A stretch of DNA of 64,000 nucleotides from Vineibacter terrae (GTDB taxonomy: Bacteria; Pseudomonadota; Alphaproteobacteria; Reyranellales; Reyranellaceae), in NCBI RefSeq assembly GCF_008039615.1, contig NZ_VDUZ01000041.1, positions 1-64,000 on the forward strand. The letters are read 5' to 3'. The position numbers were made by a program, and so were the translations under genes. Below, in pieces: positions 21,889 through 36,571 of this stretch (positions within the stretch are counted from its first letter, which is position 1; each line of letters opens with the position of its first letter). The notes under the pieces are model-generated. The model was not told the origin of the DNA and did not search any database. It saw nothing but the letters and a program-made list of their open reading frames with translations.

Positions 21889-23133
21889 TCAGGCGCTTTC
21901 AGGCCACGGTCGGAGCCGGCGGGACGGGATGGCATGGACCACGCCCTCGGCGGCAAGCCGCTCGATGTCGGCGCCGCCGTAGCCCGCCCAGCGCGCCAGG
22001 ATCTCGGCGTTGTGCTCGCCAAGGTCCGGAGCGACGAGGCCGGTCGCCTGCGGAAACGCCGAGAAGTTCAGCGGGCTGCCCGGCACCTGGAAGCGCCCCA
22101 GCACCGGGTCGTTGACATCGCGGATCGTGCCGCGCGCCAGCAGGTGCGGATTGCGCATCGCCTGCGCGACGCTCAACACCGGCGCGCAGGGCACCCGGCT
22201 GCGGCGCAGCACGTCCAGCGCCGCCTCGTCGCTGGGCTGCGCCGTGAGCCAGGCCTCGATGATCGCCACCAGCGCGTCGCGGTTCGCCATGCGCGCCGCG
22301 TTCTCGGCAAATCGCGGATCGGTCTGCAGATCCTCCCGCCCCATGGCGACGGTCAGCCGCCGCCACATGTCATCGCTGACCGGCACCACCATCATGTAGC
22401 CGTCGCGCGACCGGAACACGCCCAGCGGCGCCAGCTGCGTGTGGTAGCGGCCGGTGCGGTGCGGATGGACCGTGCCGCCGCTGGCGCTGTGCAGCTCGAC
22501 CGACAGGCCGTGCGTGTGGAAGTAGAAGTCGATCAGGGAGATATCGAGATACTGGCCGGTCCCGCCCGGGCCGCGCCGCCAGTAGAGCGCCGCGTTGATG
22601 GCCGCCAGGGCGCTGATGCCGGCGCCGACATCGCCGACGGCGATGCCGGTCAACGGCGGCGCCTCGTCCGGCTCGCCGATCATCGAGGTGACGCCGGTAT
22701 AGGCCTGCGCGATGAAGTCGAAGCCCGGCTGCTCGGCCAACGGGCCGCTTTGCCCGAAGGCCGAGATCGAGCACATGATGATCTGGGGATTGATGGCGTG
22801 CACCACCTCCCAGCCCAGCCCCATCCTGCCGATCACGCCCGGCGAGAAGTTCTCCACCACCACGTCGATCTTCGGCAGCATCGCCTTCAGGGCCTCGATC
22901 GCCGCCGGCTTGCGCAGATCAAGGCAGAGGCTCTTCTTCCCAAGATTGTGCTGCACGAAATAGGCGCTGCGCCCGTCCCTGATCAGCGGCAGGGCACGCG
23001 CCTGGTCGCCCTTCGGCGCAAGCTCGACCTTGATGACCTCGGCGCCCAGCTCGGCCATCTGCCGGGTCGCGACCGGCCCGGCGATGTATTGCGTGAAGTC
23101 GAGGACCGTGACCCCTTCGAGCGGTCCCTTCAC
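21889..23133 (-). CDS. CaiB/BaiF-type CoA-transferase (class III)
   Basis: A 414-residue family III CoA-transferase. The N-terminal LEGVTVLDFTQYIAGP and GAEVIKVELAPKGD segments and the catalytic-Asp region GQYLDISLID are characteristic; the Asp forms the acyl anhydride/CoA thioester intermediate. It moves CoA between carboxylic acids, with an unknown substrate. Its ATG overlaps the stop of the upstream amidohydrolase by 4 nt, so the two are translated together and likely act on the same acid. Confidence 0.9.
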   Translation of the reverse strand: MKGPLEGVTVLDFTQYIAGPVATRQMAELGAEVIKVELAPKGDQARALPLIRDGRSAYFVQHNLGKKSLCLDLRKPAAIEALKAMLPKIDVVVENFSPGVIGRMGLGWEVVHAINPQIIMCSISAFGQSGPLAEQPGFDFIAQAYTGVTSMIGEPDEAPPLTGIAVGDVGAGISALAAINAALYWRRGPGGTGQYLDISLIDFYFHTHGLSVELHSASGGTVHPHRTGRYHTQLAPLGVFRSRDGYMMVVPVSDDMWRRLTVAMGREDLQTDPRFAENAARMANRDALVAIIEAWLTAQPSDEAALDVLRRSRVPCAPVLSVAQAMRNPHLLARGTIRDVNDPVLGRFQVPGSPLNFSAFPQATGLVAPDLGEHNAEILARWAGYGGADIERLAAEGVVHAIPSRRLRPWPESA

Positions 23134-28798: not shown

Positions 28799-28842
28799 GC
28801 GTAGGGCTATCGCACATGGTCGGAAGTGTCTGTTTTCGACTA

Positions 28843-28986
28843 CCTTCCCCCGCTTGCGGGGGAAGGTGGCGCGAAGCGCCGGATGGGGGGCGCTTCAACG
28901 CATATGGTGCATCCCATCAGCATCTGCGCTGTTGCGACACCCCCATCCGCCCTTTCGGGCACCTTCCCCCGCAAGCGGGGGAAGGT
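28843..28986. repeat. Palindromic GC-rich element, second family
   Basis: Outer arms CCTTCCCCCGCTTGCGGGGG and its complement at the right end. Each arm is itself a small hairpin, with GGATGGGGG/CCCCCATCC inner arms. A related, diverged copy is at 62766-62910, and a shorter G/C hairpin of the same style at about 111-150 runs into the lysR end. It fills the gap between convergent hyuB and the selenoprotein operon. Confidence 0.75.
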
Positions 28987-29058
28987 AGAAGCCGTCGCTG
29001 AGATTCGGCAACCCGACGCCATATGCGATCGCCGTGACTCTGAGGCAGCGGGGCCGAT

Positions 29059-29142
29059 CAGCGCCGCAGCCTCGACATCGAGGTCGTACAGCGTGAGCAG
29101 CGGCCCGACCGCGCCGTAGAAGACCGTCCTGCGCGCGTTCAT
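29059..29142 (-). pseudogene. N-terminal stub of a lactonase-like (beta-propeller) gene
   Basis: The ATG at 29142 follows the flavoprotein stop by 4 nt, so this was once the next gene of the operon. The first 28 or so residues (with TVFYGAVGPLLTLYDLDVE) resemble the start of lactonase-family beta-propeller proteins (6-phosphogluconolactonase type) as I remember them. After that, similarity ends and the frame runs into the palindromic repeat. It looks like a gene truncated by deletion or repeat insertion. The identity is tentative. Confidence 0.35.
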
Positions 29143-29146
29143 ATCG

Positions 29147-30064
29147 TCATGTCTCGCAGCGTTGCGCCGCCAGCTCGGCGGCAGTGGTCGCTTCGGCCAC
29201 GGCCTGGGTCAGCCGGCCGCCGTAGCCCGCGCGCACCGCGCCGACCGCGAACACCCCCGGCAGGGTGGTTTCGAAACGCCCGTCGGTGACCACGAAGCCG
29301 GCGGCGTCACGCGTCACCTCCGGCCCCAGCAACGCTGCGTGGGGTGCCAGCCCGACGAACACGAAGAGCCCGCTGCAGGCAATCTGCTCCTCGCTGCCGG
29401 TTTCCCTGTCGCGCACGCGGACGCCCTCGACACAAGAGGAACCCAGCACTTCGGTGATCTCGCTCGCGAAGCGCAGCCCGAAGCGTTCGTCCGTGGCGAT
29501 GCGCGACACGTAGCTCCGGCGGGCCCGGAACTGCTCGCCGCGCGTGACGATCGTGATCCTGCTGGCGAACTGGCCGAGATGCAGCGCTTCCGACAGCGCC
29601 GCGTCTCCGCCGCCCGCAACCACGACTTCGGCACCGCGATAGAGGCCGCCGTCGCACCATGCGCACTGCGACACACCCTGCCCCGCGAGCCGCGCCGCGC
29701 CGGGGACGTCCAATGTTTTCAGGGCGGCGCCGGTGGCCACGATCACCTGGTTCGCGCGCCAGGCGCCCTCCGGGCCACGCAGCGTGCGCGTCGCGCCGCC
29801 CTTGATCGCGTCGATGCGCGACGGGATCAGCGTGACGCCCAGCGTCTCGTTCTGCCCGACGAGGCCGCCGGCTAGCTCGGCGCCCGCGACGCTGCCGGTG
29901 GCGGGCCATCCGTCCAGCGCGCCCACGTTCATCACCAGCCCGCCCGGCAGGCCGTCCTCGACGAAATGCACCACCGAGCATCCGGCCAGCGCCGCATGAT
30001 GGGCGGCCGTGAGACCAGCGATGCCGCCGCCGATCACCGCAATGTCGAACCTGCTTCCTGCCAT
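29147..30064 (-). CDS. Thioredoxin-reductase-like FAD/NAD(P) flavoprotein
   Basis: A 305-residue low-molecular-weight thioredoxin-reductase-type protein. It has an FAD-binding GxGxxG (IGGGIAGLTAA, 11-21), a redox-active CAWC at 134-137 in the context VSQCAWCDGG (standard CATC position), a second dinucleotide fold (VVVAGGGDAAL) and a C-terminal FAD motif (GVFAVGAVRAGYGG, where GD is usual). The length is normal. It is the third gene in the selenoprotein operon, so it may reduce the Sec/Cys centre of that protein. This is inference from position and chemistry. The GD-to-GA change in the last motif is mildly unusual. Confidence 0.85.
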   Translation of the reverse strand: MAGSRFDIAVIGGGIAGLTAAHHAALAGCSVVHFVEDGLPGGLVMNVGALDGWPATGSVAGAELAGGLVGQNETLGVTLIPSRIDAIKGGATRTLRGPEGAWRANQVIVATGAALKTLDVPGAARLAGQGVSQCAWCDGGLYRGAEVVVAGGGDAALSEALHLGQFASRITIVTRGEQFRARRSYVSRIATDERFGLRFASEITEVLGSSCVEGVRVRDRETGSEEQIACSGLFVFVGLAPHAALLGPEVTRDAAGFVVTDGRFETTLPGVFAVGAVRAGYGGRLTQAVAEATTAAELAAQRCET

Positions 30065-30097
30065 ATGATCTTCTCCGGCCTCCGGCGGTCGGCGACC

Positions 30098-31339
30098 TTA
30101 TCGCGCGACGAGCGCTTCCGCATCCTCCGACGCATCCGCGAGAAGCTGCGTCCAGTCGGCCGGCAGGCGTATTTCGCGCGTGATCCGGGCCGGCGGGAAT
30201 CCCCATGACGGGCAATAGGCATTCTGCGGAATCGGGATGTCGCCGCCCGCGACCACGAGCACGATGTCATCAGGCGTGCGGGTCGCCGGAATGTCGCCGC
30301 GGCTCGCTTCCGCCTCCACCCAGTCCGGCCAGCGCCGATTGGCCAGGATGCGCTCGGTGAGCCAGGATTTCTCCCAGTCCGCCCGCCGCCAACGCCCCTG
30401 TTCCCAGAGGAAGCGGCGCACCTCGTCCTTGCCCAGGCCGCGCCGGGCGCAGTCCGCTGCGACCGCAGGCGCGATCAGCACCGTCGGCCGGCCGCTCCAT
30501 AGGATGCCGAAGCCCGACGCCGCCGAGCCCATGACGCTGGCAATCTCGCGCAGCCCGCCCGTCACGTTGATCACGCTCTCCGCCCGCGTCAGCGTGACGG
30601 CGCTCTGGTCCGCCGCCATTCCGGCCTCGACATGCAGCGGCGCCCAGGGGCTTTGCGCTTCGTTCTCGGCCAGGCACAGCGTGTAGCGTCCCGGCTGTCC
30701 CAGGCCGGCGAAGGATACCGCCCCCGGCCAGCCGCCGCCGATATTGTTCATCACCAGCCGGATGGCGCGGCCGATCGTGGCGTTCGCCTGCCAACCCGGC
30801 CCCAGCGCGCCGAACCCGCCATTGATCGCCAGCAAGCGCGCCACGGGTCCGTTCACGACCAGCAGCGGCGTCACGTTCTCATCGGTCGTCTGCACGCCGC
30901 GAAGGTTGAACGCGGGATCCAGCAGGCACTCGACCGCGGCCAGCACCACTGGAAGATACTCCGGCCGACACCCCGCCATCACGGCGTTGGCGGCGGCCCG
31001 CTCCGTAGTGGCCAGCCCTTTGAGCGGCTCGACCTCGCCCAGCACCTCGGCGGGCCCCCGCGACGTGAAACGCAGCGCCGCCTTCACGCGAGCGATGGTC
31101 GGCGCCACCACCGGCAGGCCGTCAGTCCAGCCCCGGCGGAGAAACAGCTCCTGGACGCGTTCCGCCGCGTTCGGTCCGCGCACCACTTCGACGCGCTGGC
31201 GCGGGAAGTCGGCGGCGAGCGGCACCCTGCCGCTCATGCCCTGCTCGGCCGCGCGCTGCTTCAGCGTGTCGTCGACCCACGCGCCGGAAGCCTGCTGGCC
31301 GGCCGGCACGACGAGCCACAGGCTGTCGCTGTCGGTCAT
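30098..31339 (-). CDS. Paralogue of the UGSC selenoprotein C-terminal domain
   Basis: A 413-residue protein that aligns with the C-terminal two-thirds of the neighbouring selenoprotein. Shared motifs are GWTDGLPVVAPT (about 71-82; GWSDGLPIVPPT there), the strongly conserved VMAGCRPEYLP (Cys124; Cys274 there), LVVNGP, ATIGR/TSVGR and LAENE. It lacks the N-terminal UGSC domain. The pair probably arose by duplication and may form a hetero-oligomer. No catalytic function is known to me. It starts 19 nt after the selenoprotein stop. Confidence 0.75.
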   Translation of the reverse strand: MTDSDSLWLVVPAGQQASGAWVDDTLKQRAAEQGMSGRVPLAADFPRQRVEVVRGPNAAERVQELFLRRGWTDGLPVVAPTIARVKAALRFTSRGPAEVLGEVEPLKGLATTERAAANAVMAGCRPEYLPVVLAAVECLLDPAFNLRGVQTTDENVTPLLVVNGPVARLLAINGGFGALGPGWQANATIGRAIRLVMNNIGGGWPGAVSFAGLGQPGRYTLCLAENEAQSPWAPLHVEAGMAADQSAVTLTRAESVINVTGGLREIASVMGSAASGFGILWSGRPTVLIAPAVAADCARRGLGKDEVRRFLWEQGRWRRADWEKSWLTERILANRRWPDWVEAEASRGDIPATRTPDDIVLVVAGGDIPIPQNAYCPSWGFPPARITREIRLPADWTQLLADASEDAEALVAR

Positions 31340-31358
31340 GCGGCGGCCGGTCCGGCCA

Positions 31359-33095
31359 TCAGGCCTGCGCGTCGCGCAGGCGCGCCCGCCAGCTCTGCGG
31401 CAGCTTGACGGTCTTCGTGGTCGGGAAGCCGAGCATTCCGTTGTGCACGAACAGATAGCAGTTGGACCGCAGCGGATCGCCCGACACCGCGATCATGATG
31501 TGCTCGGGCCTCGTCACCACCGGCACCAGGCGATTGGGATCGTTGCCCGCGAAGGCCCTGGGCAGCTTGCCCAGCCGCACCCAGTCGTTCAGCGTGCGCT
31601 TGCCGGGCACGAGGTTGGTCCAACCCCAGAGATACTTCTCGAACAGGTGCGCAGGCATGCGCGCGTTCTCGTACAGCCAGCTCTGCATGTCCTGCTTGGT
31701 CATCGTCCTGGCGATGGTTTCCGCGATCAGCGGGCTCAGCACCAGCAGTGGCCGATAGGTGCCGGTCGCCAGGCCGACGGTGAAAACCAGCTCCCACCCC
31801 GTGTGCATGACCAGCGCGTTGCCGAGATAGGGCAGCACCTTCTCCGCGCTGTCACCGAACACGGAGACGATCACGTTGCCGCCGGTGAAGCGCGAGATCG
31901 TCACTGCGCTGTCGCCGGCCGGCGCGCCCATGTCGACCGACACCGTCGGCCAGTTGAGCCTGGCGAGGCAGTCCTCGTTCTCGGCCAGCACCACGCGCCA
32001 GGTGTTGCCGAAGGTCCCCTTGTCGTTCTGATGCAGCAGGAAGCCGGCGACATTGCGCAGGTAAAGCCGCCAGAACCGGCCAACCGAGGTGTTGGGCTGG
32101 AAGCCGTCGCGCAGCGCGCCCTGCTCGTAGTTGAAGCCCAATTGCTTGATCAGCGGACCGTTGAGCACGATCAGCGTCTCGGCGCCCGGCGTATTGCCGG
32201 AATGCTCGACCCCGTACTCCGGATCGGCCATGGCCTCCGCCAGCGCCACCAGGATCGGCATGTACTCCGGGCGGCAGCCGGCCATGACGCCATTCGCGGC
32301 GACGTTCCATACCGTGGCCAGACGGTTGTCGGGCGGCAGCTTGCCGATCAGATGATCCGGCGCAAGGTCCGTGAAGGCCAGGAACGCCGCAATCTTCTCC
32401 TTGGTCGGCGGCACGATCGGCAGCCCGTCGCTCCAGCCATTCTCCAGGAACAGCCGGTTGACCTCCTCGAAGCTGCCGTCGAGCACGATCTCCTGCGGGT
32501 CGGGGTCCTTGACCGCGGTCACGGCCGCGATCTCGCCGGTCAGGTTCCGGATCACATGCTCGACCGTGGTGCCGAGCACATTGCGGCGCAGGTCGGCATC
32601 GGTCTGAACGTCGACATGCCCTGGAACGGTGGCCAGGGCGAGGTTGGGATAACCCAGGCCGACGGACGTCGTCTTGGCCTGCCCGAGGAAGCCCTCGCAG
32701 CACAGCGACGACGTCGGCACGCCGGCTTCTTCTGCAATCGCGCTGACCCGCAACACGGCGGGCGTGCAGCTCCCTCAACACCCCATGCCGGAAACGACGG
32801 CATCAATCTTCAGCGACTTGATCTTGCCCGGCAGCTCCGCCAGCACCCGATGCTCCTCGTCGCCATGCGTCGAGCCGAACGCATCATGGTCGATGAACGT
32901 CATGTTCGAGTAGCGGCGCGACAGCTCCTCCTTGAGCATCGGCCAGATTTCGTCGCCGCGGAACAGATTGTCCCACAGGAACGCGATCGTCTTGCCCTCG
33001 AGCGTATCGAGCCGCCTGGCCAGCGGCTTGATGTCGACCGTCTTGGCGCCGCGCGGCCAGACCACCGGATAGCTGCCGTTGTCCCGCTGTGCCAT
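31359..33095 (-). CDS. UGSC-family selenoprotein with in-frame TGA (Sec107)
   Basis: A 578-residue protein when the TGA at 32775-32777 is read as selenocysteine. The frame before it (from 33095) ends VVSGMGC. The frame after it continues without a break as GSCTPAVLRVSAIAEEAG and is open to 31359. This gives Cys106-Sec107-Gly-Ser-Cys110, the U-G-S-C motif of a known but functionally uncharacterised selenoprotein family. A bacterial-SECIS-like hairpin follows the TGA. Domain 1 (1 to about 190) carries the redox motif and Cys132-Cys133. Domain 2 (about 210-578) carries DGLPIVPPT and GCRPEY and is shared with the next gene. Start: ATG at 33095 with GGAG 6 nt upstream; ATG 33107 is the alternative. 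Ordinary ORF calling would split it into two wrong genes. Confidence 0.88.
32746..32763 (-). promoter_or_regulatory. Candidate bacterial SECIS hairpin
   Basis: Directly downstream of the selenoprotein TGA on the minus strand. A 6-bp stem (GCCCGC pairing with GCGGGT, the outermost pair G-U) closes a 6-nt loop CGTGTT with a G in its second position. The loop begins 18 nt after the TGA. Bacterial SECIS elements sit in this interval and bind SelB through a short G-containing apical loop. The stem is short, so structure prediction should confirm it. Confidence 0.6.
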
Positions 33096-33612
33096 GCGCT
33101 TCTCCATCCCGTCGTGTTGCTTGCTTGTGGATCTGTACTAACCGCGCCTGCGCCCGAGAGACAGTGTTCCGATGGCGTGGCAGCTCTGCCGTGAAAGCTT
33201 ACCTCGAGCAGCGGGCCTTCTGGCGATTCCCGAGACACACACGTCATCCCGAGCGCAGCGAGGGATCTCCTGCGAATGGCGCACCATGCGTCTTTCGCAG
33301 GAGATCCCTCGCTACGCTCGGGATGACGGCGGCTATGCGGTTGTAGACGCCGCCTACTTCTTGCGTATTCCAGTATAGCGCCCGTTGCGGAACGCACGCC
33401 GCCGACTTGTTGACATCGCCTGTCAGGCAATGGAACGTTACGTCCAAGCCGTCGACCGAGCGGCTATCGGGGAAACATCAAGCGGCGTTTCCGGCAGCAG
33501 CCATCGCATATCCGCGAATCGCCATGACCTTGCGGCGCAGCCGCCGGCTCGGAGCCGGCCCGTTGCGTCTTGTCACGCAGCCCGCCCACGCGGGCGATTT
33601 GGGAGGGATCGC
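33096..33612. other. Divergent control region between selenoprotein operon and TRAP genes
   Basis: It holds one copy of the dispersed palindromic element (33242-33329). On the TRAP side the frame is open from 33385, but without protein-like sequence or a ribosome site until 33601. I do not see an unambiguous operator. The divergent layout suggests shared regulation of transport and the selenoprotein operon. Confidence 0.4.
33242..33329. repeat. Dispersed palindromic element, copy 4
   Basis: Left arm CGTCATCCCGAGCGCAGCGA and right arm ending GCTCGGGATGACG, with a GCGAATGGCGCACCATGCGT centre almost identical to copies 16906-16989 and 43532-43618. Confidence 0.88.
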
Positions 33613-34623
33613 ATGCTGACCATCCACAGACGTTCCGTCGTGCTGGGCGTGCTTGGTGCCGCTGCCGCGAGCAGCCGCGCCACCGCACAGTCTCCGGTCA
33701 AATGGGACATGTACTCCATGGTCGGCGTCACGCATCCCATCACGCTGCGCTACAAGGCCTTCGCTGACGAGGTGAAGACGGCCACCGGCGGCAAGCTCGA
33801 CATCATCGTGCGTCCTGCCGGCGAGCTGCCGTTCCGCGCCACCGAGGTCGTCAAGGTCACCGGCGACAACCAGGTGCAGCTCTCCGAGGGCTACCAGGGT
33901 TTCATTTCAGGCGCCGTGCCGCTGGCCTCGATCGCCAGCCTGCCGTTTCTGGTGCGCAACGGCGAGGAGCTCGAGAAAGTCTGGCCGATCATCGACAAGT
34001 ACACAGCCGTCGAGTTCAAGAAGTCGGGCGTGCAGACATTGTTCCACCACACCTGGCCGGTGCAGAACATCTTCGGCCGCGGCAAGCCGATCAAGACTGT
34101 CGATGATTTCAAGGGGCGCAAGATACGCTCCACCGACGGCAAGCAGGCCGAGATGCTGAAGCAGCTCGGCGCCTCCTCCGTCAGCCTGACCACGGCCGAG
34201 GTGCCGGTCGCCATGGAGCGCGGCGTCGCCGAGGGGTTCATCACCGCAGGCTTCAATATCATCGGCGCGAAATGGTACGAATTCGTGCAATGGGGCTGGC
34301 TCGGGGATGTTCATATCGGCGGGCCTGACTACACGCTGGTCAACGTCGCCGCATACGACAAGCTCGACGCCGATACGCGAGCGAAGCTTGATGCCGTGGC
34401 CAAGGACTATGCGCCGCGCTTCCGCGCTGCCAACCTCGGCGACGAGGCAAAGGACCTCGATACGTTGAAGACCAAATACAAGGTCGATCTGTTCGTGCCG
34501 CCGAAGGAGCAGGTCGACGCCCTGATCGAGAAGATGAAGCCGTATTGGGAGCAATGGGCGTCCGGCCACGGCGCCAACGGCGTCGCCATGCTCAAGGAGA
34601 TCCGGGCCGCCCTCGGCAAGTGA
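33613..34623 (+). CDS. TRAP transporter substrate-binding protein (DctP type)
   Basis: A 336-residue periplasmic receptor: signal peptide (about 1-25, cleavage after ATAQ), then the DctP fold with GVTHPITLRYKAFADEV and the GRKIRSTDGKQAEMLKQLGA region that carries the ligand-binding Arg in this family. It delivers a carboxylate-type solute to the membrane subunits encoded next. The ATG at 33613 follows GGGAGGGA. Together with the selenoprotein operon opposite, it may import that operon's substrate. Confidence 0.9.
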   Translation: MLTIHRRSVVLGVLGAAAASSRATAQSPVKWDMYSMVGVTHPITLRYKAFADEVKTATGGKLDIIVRPAGELPFRATEVVKVTGDNQVQLSEGYQGFISGAVPLASIASLPFLVRNGEELEKVWPIIDKYTAVEFKKSGVQTLFHHTWPVQNIFGRGKPIKTVDDFKGRKIRSTDGKQAEMLKQLGASSVSLTTAEVPVAMERGVAEGFITAGFNIIGAKWYEFVQWGWLGDVHIGGPDYTLVNVAAYDKLDADTRAKLDAVAKDYAPRFRAANLGDEAKDLDTLKTKYKVDLFVPPKEQVDALIEKMKPYWEQWASGHGANGVAMLKEIRAALGK

Positions 34624-34691: not shown

Positions 34692-35216
34692 GTGCAATCA
34701 CCGCCGCCGACCGCCAGCGCCAATCCACCCGACCGCGGCGCGGTCGATCGTGTCGTGGGGCGCATAGCGCATGCCGGCGCTCTGCTTGCCGCTGCCGCCA
34801 TCGTCGCCATCCTCGTGATGGTGTGCGCCGAGACGGCGCTGCGCCAGTTCCGGGTCTCACTGCTGGTGACCGACGAGATCGCCGGCTACCTCAACGCCGC
34901 AGCGGTCTTTCTCGGGCTGGCCTGGACCTTGCGCGAGGGCGGCTTCATCCGCGTCGAGATTCTGTACGATCGCGCCCGGGGCATTGTCGGATCAGCGCTG
35001 CGCTGGCTGATCGGGCTTACGTCGATCGCGTTCGCGGCGATCATGCTTTGGGTCTGCGCGCGGCATGTCCTCTACGCGCTGCAGCACGACACGCGCGCCG
35101 TATCGATCATCGAGACGCCCGAATGGATACCCCAGTCGGTCATGGTGATCGGCCTGGCGATCCTGTTGCTGCAGCTGCTCGCCTGGCTCGTTGCCCGCTT
35201 CCGCAACATTCCCTGA
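34692..35216 (+). CDS. TRAP transporter small permease (DctQ type)
   Basis: A 174-residue four-helix membrane protein with the DctQ pattern: helix 1 near 30-50, ALRQFRVSLLVTDEIAGYL in the loop, and ILLLQLLAWLVARF at the C-terminus. The start is GTG at 34692 after AGGAGTGAG. Its partner large permease starts 53 nt downstream. Confidence 0.88.
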   Translation: MQSPPPTASANPPDRGAVDRVVGRIAHAGALLAAAAIVAILVMVCAETALRQFRVSLLVTDEIAGYLNAAAVFLGLAWTLREGGFIRVEILYDRARGIVGSALRWLIGLTSIAFAAIMLWVCARHVLYALQHDTRAVSIIETPEWIPQSVMVIGLAILLLQLLAWLVARFRNIP

Positions 35217-35269: not shown

Positions 35270-36571
35270 ATGAATCTCGAGTTGCTGACACTGATCCTGA
35301 TCGCGAGCCTTGCCGTCATGCTGACGGCCGGCCAATGGACCGCCTTCGCGCTCGGCATCTGTGGCGTGCTGGTGCTCTACCTCAGCAAGGGCTTGCTCGG
35401 CCTCACCGCGCTTTCCTCGGTGGTCTGGAACAACGCCAACAGCTACATCCTGATCGCCGTGCCGATGTTCCTGCTGATGGGAGAGGTCATCCTGCGCAGC
35501 GGCGTCAGCGGCTATTTCTACCGCGGCGTCGTCGTCCTGCTCGGCAGCCTGCCCGGCGGCCTGCTGCACGCCAACATCACGAGCTGCGCGGTGTTCTCCG
35601 CGGTCTCGGGATCCAGCGTCGCCACCGCCGCCACGGTGGGAACCGTGGCCATTCCCGAGATGCTCAAGCGCGGCTACGAACCGCGGACGGTGTTCGGCTC
35701 GCTGGCCGCCGGCGGCACGCTCGGCATCCTGATCCCGCCGAGCATCATCATGGTGCTGTATGGCGCCCTGGTGGAGGAATCGATCGCCAGGCTGTTCATG
35801 GCCGGCGTCCTGCCCGGCCTGCTCATGGCTGCCGTCTTCATGACCTTCATCGCGCTGCTGCTGCTGTACAAGCCGCACTATGCGCCGCCGCGCGGCGCGA
35901 AAGGGGCAAGACCGCCGGCCGGCGACGTCGTCCACGTCTTTCCCGTCCTGGGCCTGCTGGTCGTGGTCCTCGGCAGCATCTATTCCGGCATCGCAACGCC
36001 GACCGAAGCCTCGGCGCTCGGCGCCTTCGGCGCCATCCTGCTCGCGGTGGGCTATCGTGCCTTCTCCCGCCGTGTCTTCGCCGAAGCGCTGATGTCCACG
36101 GTGAAGACCACCTGCATGGTGACGCTGATCATCATCGGTGCCCAGATCCTGTCCACCGCCCTCACCTATTCCGGCGTGAGCCGGACCGTCAGCGAGTGGA
36201 TCATGGGCCTCGGCCTGGGCAAGTGGGAGTTCTTCGTCGCCCTGGTCATGCTCTACATCGTGCTCGGATGCTTCGTCGACGGCATCTCGATGATCTACAT
36301 GACCCTGCCGGTCTTGCTGCCGGTGGTGAAGGCCTTCGGCTTCGACCTCGTGTGGTTCGGCGTCGTCCTCACCGTGCTGATCGAGCTCGGCCAGATCACG
36401 CCGCCCGTGGGCCTCAACCTGTTCACCATCCATGCCATCTCCGGCGGCCACAAATTCGCCGAGGTCGCGATCGGCTCGACCCCGTACGTGGCCCTGATGC
36501 TCCTGGTCATCGCGATGCTCGCGTTCTGGCCCGAGATCGCGCTCTGGCTGCCCAACACCATGCGCGGCTGA
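35270..36571 (+). CDS. TRAP transporter large permease (DctM type)
   Basis: A 433-residue, roughly 12-helix DctM subunit. The family segments are clear: SSVATAATVGTVAIPEM, GGTLGILIPPSIIMVLYG and GQITPPVGLNLFTIHAI. It forms the Na+-coupled transport channel with the small permease. Standard length, no defect seen. Confidence 0.93.
   Translation: MNLELLTLILIASLAVMLTAGQWTAFALGICGVLVLYLSKGLLGLTALSSVVWNNANSYILIAVPMFLLMGEVILRSGVSGYFYRGVVVLLGSLPGGLLHANITSCAVFSAVSGSSVATAATVGTVAIPEMLKRGYEPRTVFGSLAAGGTLGILIPPSIIMVLYGALVEESIARLFMAGVLPGLLMAAVFMTFIALLLLYKPHYAPPRGAKGARPPAGDVVHVFPVLGLLVVVLGSIYSGIATPTEASALGAFGAILLAVGYRAFSRRVFAEALMSTVKTTCMVTLIIIGAQILSTALTYSGVSRTVSEWIMGLGLGKWEFFVALVMLYIVLGCFVDGISMIYMTLPVLLPVVKAFGFDLVWFGVVLTVLIELGQITPPVGLNLFTIHAISGGHKFAEVAIGSTPYVALMLLVIAMLAFWPEIALWLPNTMRG

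Follow-up and report, generated by a model that had tools for sequence, protein, structure and literature searches.

Within a 64,000-nucleotide stretch of DNA from Vineibacter terrae (GCF_008039615.1, contig NZ_VDUZ01000041.1, positions 1-64,000 of the forward strand; hereafter the window), three minus-strand genes encode a selenoprotein of the UGSC family fused to a partner domain that we call U1, a second, stand-alone U1 protein, and a flavoprotein resembling thioredoxin reductase. Profile comparisons relate the UGSC domain to GrdB and PrdB, the selenoproteins of the glycine/sarcosine/betaine and D-proline reductases, and we see roughly an even chance that the operon makes a GrdB/PrdB-like selenoenzyme which, driven by a thioredoxin system, reductively attacks an imported carboxylate. 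The adjacency of U1 and UGSC, the association of the fused pair with the flavoprotein and with importers of the tripartite ATP-independent periplasmic (TRAP) type, and the failure of other neighbouring genes (hydantoinase A/B and a short terminal reading frame) to recur are described here for the first time.

A fused selenoprotein and its conserved partner

The operon spans 29147-33107, with only 19 and 33 bp between its genes. The selenoprotein gene (31359-33107, minus strand) is open apart from a single in-frame TGA at codon 111 (32775-32777), beyond which the frame continues for 471 codons; read as selenocysteine (Sec), this codon yields a protein of 582 residues with the context GMGC-U-GSC, or Cys110-Sec111-Gly-Ser-Cys114. 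An alternative ATG at 33095, preceded by GGAG, is a likelier start than 33107. The UGSC domain (Pfam PF24696) occupies residues 15-190 (32538-33065), and a U1 domain of about 370 residues (31365-32477) makes up the C-terminal part of the fusion. The stand-alone second U1 protein, U1b (413 residues; 30098-31339, minus strand), is a paralogue of that C-terminal part, with 32% identity over 380 residues. The fused protein is 86-88% identical to two relatives, in an alignment that runs straight through the TGA.

The genome is equipped to decode this codon. SelA (537.6 bits), SelB (431.2 bits against a cut-off of 242.25) and tRNA-Sec (75.3 bits against a gathering threshold of 47) lie together on one contig, and the genome holds four UGSC genes, each with one TGA, together with which six U1 domains are located. 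Relatives were fetched with a U1 profile, the best 80 of at least 577 confirmed relatives being kept as loci (identified below by L-numbers). Their 82 UGSC stretches—counting those of at least 130 residues, and leaving aside shorter matches and the window itself—carry TGA at the Sec position in 74 cases, TGC in seven and neither in one. A UGSC-domain relative with EGGNP at the site, hence neither Sec nor Cys (L095:6002-6523), adjoins two U1 genes. Across 385 sampled genomes of the class, UGSC was found in 38, with one TGA in 95 of the 100 matches among those listed.

Directly downstream of the codon, a hairpin resembling a selenocysteine insertion sequence (SECIS) can be recognised. The main type pairs positions +12 to +18 with +24 to +30; in 60 distinct sequences 376 of 420 cells (89.5%) are paired, compared with a mean of 81.8% and a maximum of 84.8% in shuffled controls, and shifting the stem by one or two bases leaves pairing at 19-47%. 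The pair 18-24 covaries, being G-C in 39 sequences and C-G in 18, while the seven Cys-type genes pair at the same positions in 26 of 49 cells. The window carries a distinct, SECIS-like hairpin, CCCGC-CGUGUU-GCGGG, at +13 to +28 after the UGA (32747-32762, minus strand). Its stem is common to all 12 rows of its type; five of its six pairs are unvaried, hence it shows no covariation of its own, and its folding-energy z-score is unremarkable (0.09). Because SelA, SelB and tRNA-Sec are present, because homologues hold UGA (74 of 82) or Cys (seven) at the site, and because the main-type stem covaries, Sec at codon 111 is, as judged from sequence, genuine. In one related locus, from a Rhodoferax metagenome-assembled genome (L038:11186-14667), selA and a selB-like gene, the latter assigned by eye, follow the operon, as if the Sec genes travel along with it.

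UGSC and U1 are, by the evidence of gene order, partners. A UGSC gene lies on the same strand within 2 kb of U1 in 67 of the 80 loci and within about 4 kb in four more; nine loci lack one nearby, and in five of these the contig ends within a short distance. These loci were selected by U1 similarity to the window, and so do not represent a random sample of UGSC genes. Three loci (L070, L073 and L102) carry arrays of three or four consecutive U1 genes, and a single UGSC gene lies downstream at a distance of some kilobases. The arrangement found in the window, a fused UGSC-U1 gene followed by a second U1 gene, was recognised in 16 loci that can be told apart and have sufficient flanking sequence: the window, L031, L032, L033, L034, L036, L037, L038, L040, L197-L200, L204, L205 and L207. 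The identical contigs L036 and L202 are counted once here, L034 and L201 (94% DNA identity) are merged, and L035, L039 and L203, whose contigs end inside the module, are left out. The flavoprotein gene adjoins the pair in 12 of the 16, counting L037, where it comes after one inserted gene, and L197, where it is divergent. Seven further fused loci that lack U1b (L206 and L208-L213) lack the flavoprotein as well.

U1 itself has no Pfam or NCBIfam model; no family in either was matched by more than two of 93 U1 members at E <= 1 (best values 0.044 and 0.0032), and a sequence search of the PDB gave no match. One Cys is nearly invariant (91 of 93 sequences); Gly74, Pro165 and Glu225 are invariant, and Asp73, Arg191 and Asn186 nearly so. 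The predicted U1b model (predicted local distance difference test, pLDDT, 94.7) found no PDB match at E <= 0.001 with Foldseek, the best being fumarase at 1.6e-3, and with VIA-align the top match covered 82 residues at Z 5.4. Cyclic amide hydrolases, barbiturase among them, were considered as fold relatives and set aside (E 3e-2 and worse, template modelling scores up to about 0.2). On the model, U1 has no convincing relative in the PDB, and we make no claim that it has the Toblerone fold or a novel one. It is likely the 'Unknown_1' domain that the accessible text of a 2008 paper (PMC2398784) describes in fusion with UGSC.

The first-pass annotation of this locus, made from the DNA letters, had described three closely spaced minus-strand genes—a Cys-Sec-x-x-Cys protein starting at 33095, a duplicated companion domain and a CAWC flavoprotein—as one redox module with a divergent TRAP importer, and had proposed conservation of gene order as one check. 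Its observation is confirmed in each of these respects, the order recurring in other genomes; its interpretation is partly supported. In calling the module uncharacterised it was right as to function, while the family is known and its fusion has been in print since 2008.

Probable kinship of the UGSC domain with GrdB and PrdB

That 2008 paper reported the UGSC family, with 255 sequences, and the UGSC/Unknown_1 fusion and, in its accessible text, assigned no function (PMC2398784); it proposed a thioredoxin-like fold, a suggestion repeated in a 2026 review that, in the portion available, gives the function as unknown. The window domain belongs to this family by its Sec in a U-G-S-C motif, its whole-domain match to PF24696 (90.3 bits, cut-off 25; all 65 of 65 homologues match) and the known fusion. 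Its type differs in the Cys that precedes Sec, in the U1 fusion followed by a second U1 and the flavoprotein, and in its score against NCBIfam NF041046 (UGSC_fam), which at 45.6 bits lies under the equivalog cut-off of 125; by these scores it is of the same superfamily and outside that equivalog. A Cys directly before Sec is found in nine of 65 UGSC sequences, Asp in 41.

The fused protein is modelled with a mean pLDDT of 91.3 and a predicted template modelling score of 0.92. Its UGSC part shows alternating strands and helices, and Sec111 follows a strand (103-109) and precedes a helix (114-127). The top structural match by Z is a designed protein (11.2), followed by PurE (Z 10.0, root mean square deviation 2.8 over 122 residues) and then by the B12-binding photocobilin and dehydrogenase-type Rossmann domains at Z 8.4-9.6. 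The domain is thus predicted to be Rossmann-like alpha/beta, a common arrangement from which no function follows. The model does not resemble the thioredoxin-like fold suggested earlier, and none of the 50 structural matches listed is a thioredoxin, though such a list cannot exclude a fold; a sequence search of the PDB with UGSC returned chance matches only.

Profile comparison goes further. GrdB and PrdB-like selenoproteins were gathered among relatives and across 345 genomes belonging to another phylum, and GrdE, used for comparison, was recognised by its position upstream of grdB and its motif rather than by a hidden Markov model (HMM). In hhalign, a profile of 65 UGSC sequences aligns with one of six GrdB sequences across 82 columns (probability 95.7%, score 58.6), Sec upon Sec and a later HP motif included; for 15 PrdB-like sequences the values are 87.2% and 43.6. 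An initial comparison, in which the PrdB set was narrow, had given a lower 52.6%. Reversed and 180 column-shuffled controls scored at most 22.2. With 11 columns (Sec-2 to Sec+8) masked on both sides, the match to GrdB is 88.9% (score 45.0) and that to PrdB 87.9% (score 44.4), as against scores of at most 20.1 in 80 masked controls. As controls, thioredoxin reductase, itself a Rossmann protein, gave 1.5% and GrdE 7.5%. Removing the window type leaves 56 sequences that match GrdB at 96.1%; the nine window-type sequences alone reach 50.6% with GrdB and 94.3% with the PrdB-like set. An HMM of GrdB and PrdB together, run with filters off, matches all 65 UGSC sequences at E <= 10, the best at 2.5e-8. 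Because the hhalign scores stand far above their controls and survive masking of the Sec motif, UGSC and GrdB/PrdB are likely to share descent.

What the two families have in common is the strand-Sec-x-x-Cys-helix element and the 60 residues that follow it, the UxxC motif, and a thioredoxin-type reductant nearby; they differ in that the window domain has no GRDB Pfam match, in a companion other than GrdE or PrdA, in the fused architecture and in hosts that look aerobic. No relation of U1 to GrdB or PrdB was found. Similar in outline is the farB/farE operon of Cloacibacillus porcorum, which reduces monofluoroacetate: it likewise pairs a GrdB-like selenoprotein with a transporter in a small operon acting on a carboxylate, while having a GrdE-like FarE and an anaerobic host, with no U1 mentioned in the accessible text (PMC10838667). 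Elsewhere the V. terrae genome encodes a further, PrdB-like selenoprotein (L114; G000:C49, 58677-58889 and around) with the motif SPV-U-PFC and a Pfam GRDB score of 39.4 bits, and a search of 61 genomes found GRDB matches in 29.

No link between UGSC and GrdB/PrdB, and no account of U1 as an operon partner, was found in the accessible literature (including PMC9312934, PMC5330540, PMC7539508, PMC5029168 and PMC9402790, in the text available).

Putative electron supply, importers and other neighbours

The third gene of the operon (29147-30064, minus strand) encodes a flavoprotein with a Pyr_redox_2 domain (106.7 bits). It resembles TrxB in fold family and in the position of its CxxC, here CAWC, and differs in its score against TIGR01292 (216.3 bits, under the equivalog cut-off of 343.45) and in its NADPH-site motif. 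The redox CxxC is present in every flavoprotein found in the related loci. The HRR motif marks NADPH specificity; compared with the genome's other thioredoxin reductase (L167; 34% identity), the operon enzyme has TRGEQFRA in place of HRRDILRA. TRG in place of HRR offers a hint of another electron donor, and one might guess at NADH. Reductases of this kind recur elsewhere in the family: in the Cys-type loci of Cupriavidus pauculus (L068) and Candidimonas nitroreducens (L071), the order is U1, UGSC, a CoA-transferase (CaiB) and thioredoxin reductase.

Thioredoxin-like domains are found even closer to U1. In the V. terrae genome (L028:8200-9654) and in L199:3000-4484, U1 is preceded within the same protein by a domain that carries CxxC (CHTC or CPTC) and, further on, VPT. 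In L028 this domain resembles thioredoxin by sequence, below thresholds: it scores under the Pfam thioredoxin cut-off (15.1 against 23.5 bits), and nearly every top PDB match is a thioredoxin (lowest E 0.0075). Such a fusion seems to join a substrate subunit to its reductant. The flavoprotein and these thioredoxin-like fusions together suggest a thiol path for electrons.

Divergent from the operon, on the plus strand, stands a complete TRAP importer, each component identified by Pfam: the DctP solute-binding protein (33613-34623), DctQ (34692-35216; 81.7 bits) and DctM (35270-36571; 306.6 bits). A similar set occurs in five of the 16 loci (the window, L031, L197, L198 and L207), with DctP 56-82% identical; gene calls in several related loci, including those behind this comparison, the hydantoinase and stub comparisons below and the gene orders of L038, L068 and L071, come from a GC-pattern heuristic. 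Across the wider family, TctC accounted for 13 of the 82 nearest same-strand neighbours scanned. TRAP and TctC importers handle carboxylates, and their presence beside many copies suggests a substrate of that kind.

Other neighbours fare less well. The hydantoinase A/B genes to which the first-pass annotation had pointed are real neighbours in the window; as partners they find no support, neither HyuA nor HyuB being matched in 26 related loci, one of the same genus included, within flanks of about 3 to 8 kb. The 'lactonase-like' stub (28840-29142), which it took as the last gene of the operon, matches no Pfam family, recurs in none of the other loci searched and runs into a palindromic repeat; a comparison with the dienelactone hydrolase downstream of L031, of which it might have been a remnant, gave no support. 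A type III CoA-transferase is located in the window at 21997-23127 and near the module in L032, L033, L037 and L203, and other amidohydrolase or alpha/beta-hydrolase genes near some copies are of families different from those in the window. Where the annotation had left reductive or hydrolytic breakdown as alternatives, the relation of the UGSC domain to GrdB/PrdB points to the reductive course.

Palindromic intergenic repeats flank the operon at 28840-28988 and 33242-33328 (49-nt arms, 82% complementary; 42-nt arms, 93% complementary). An Rfam scan of the window matched a tRNA only, and a sigma-70 promoter scan matched nothing where 0.4 matches were expected.

A proposed reaction and its rivals

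How might such an operon work? In the accessible accounts of protein B enzymes, Sec acts as the nucleophile on a polarised bond to carbon (PMC13188914), and fluoroacetate reduction involves the same kind of attack (PMC10838667). It is because of the homology to protein B enzymes that we propose the same role for Sec111. The TRAP importer would bring in a small carboxylate, which U1—present in two copies, one fused to UGSC—would bind, standing in for GrdE as the substrate subunit of a putative complex, apparently without GrdE's carbonyl chemistry. Sec111 sits where a helix begins in the predicted Rossmann-like domain, and its selenolate may then attack a C-N, C-O, C-S or C-halogen bond of the substrate, much as protein B enzymes do in reductive deamination; a neighbouring thiol (that of Cys110, of Cys114 or of the conserved U1 Cys) could resolve the intermediate to an Se-S bond, and the CAWC flavoprotein would reduce this bond with NAD(P)H, either directly or through thioredoxin.

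Several observations weigh against this proposal. The window domain has no match to Pfam GRDB (PF07355) at E <= 1; the hhalign E-values are those of single pairs, and with a Rossmann-like UGSC model a common fold may supply part of the score. Between U1 and GrdE, hhalign detects no relation (0.2%, a value that does not exceed the shuffled controls), and because of this the Schiff-base step of glycine and proline reductase cannot be transferred to the present system. The GrdE/PrdA-type companion PF09338 was not found in the V. terrae genome, nor among 200 genomes from its phylum or seven that carry loci studied here, by a search whose sensitivity is unproven since it matched in no genome, positive controls included. 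The flavoprotein is missing from four of the 16 loci (L032, L040, L198 and L199), and a gene like it is in reach at only four of 70 other loci of the wider family. Finally, the hosts look aerobic, and to our knowledge the known protein B enzymes all come from anaerobes.

Alternative explanations need to be set against the same evidence. It is unlikely, on balance, that the module is a general thiol-redox or peroxide-removing system, in which UGSC would be a thioredoxin-like oxidoreductase, U1 its client or regulator and the flavoprotein its reductant: the UxxC motif and the thioredoxin-reductase-like neighbour would suit such a role, but the UGSC model is Rossmann-like with PurE as its best natural match, the 50 structural matches listed hold no thioredoxin (which is not exclusion), and homology leads to GrdB/PrdB. 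A partner multiplied within one genome to six U1 copies beside four of UGSC, together with transporter neighbours, better fits a catabolic enzyme. Lower still is the probability that Sec serves as a ligand rather than a catalyst, the module binding or detoxifying a metal, metalloid or selenium compound. Adjacent Cys and Sec plus a second Cys could hold a soft metal, and the 2026 review, in the portion available, proposes such roles for other selenoproteins; yet the Cys before Sec belongs to the minority of nine in 65 sequences, with Asp the commoner residue, and among 25 listed of the 84 families found beside the module there is no metal-resistance family, carboxylate importers being found instead.

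A hydrolytic pathway degrading lactams or hydantoins, with the selenoprotein acting alongside hydantoinase A/B, the amidohydrolase and the lactonase stub, appears very unlikely. The named genes do adjoin the module in the window, but HyuA/HyuB recur in none of the 26 related loci, the stub is confined to the window among the loci searched, and hydrolase genes near other copies belong to different families. Hardly any credence attaches to the simplest objection, that the UGA is a true stop in a broken or split gene: translation table 11 reads a stop there, and nothing else speaks for it, whereas the conservation of UGA or Cys among homologues, the covarying stem that the Cys forms lack, the Sec machinery and the identity that persists across the codon all speak against it. 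Of these accounts, reductive attack on an imported carboxylate by a GrdB/PrdB-like selenoenzyme is the one we favour.

More tentatively, and with a probability that falls short of even, UGSC and U1 may together constitute a sizeable branch of the protein B reductases that has gone unrecognised, one that works without a GrdE/PrdA subunit and has multiplied and varied in aerobic soil and ocean bacteria, where it would cleave imported carboxylates reductively. U1, for which no solved structure of the same fold was found, would be its substrate subunit, and the dedicated flavoprotein its source of electrons. UGSC is among the most abundant selenoproteins of ocean surveys, amounting to 8.2% of 4324 selenoprotein genes in one of them (PMC9402790), yet no function was found for it in the literature accessible to us. 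A link to GrdB/PrdB, the fixed partner U1, an electron donor and importers together make of an orphan family a testable enzyme hypothesis.

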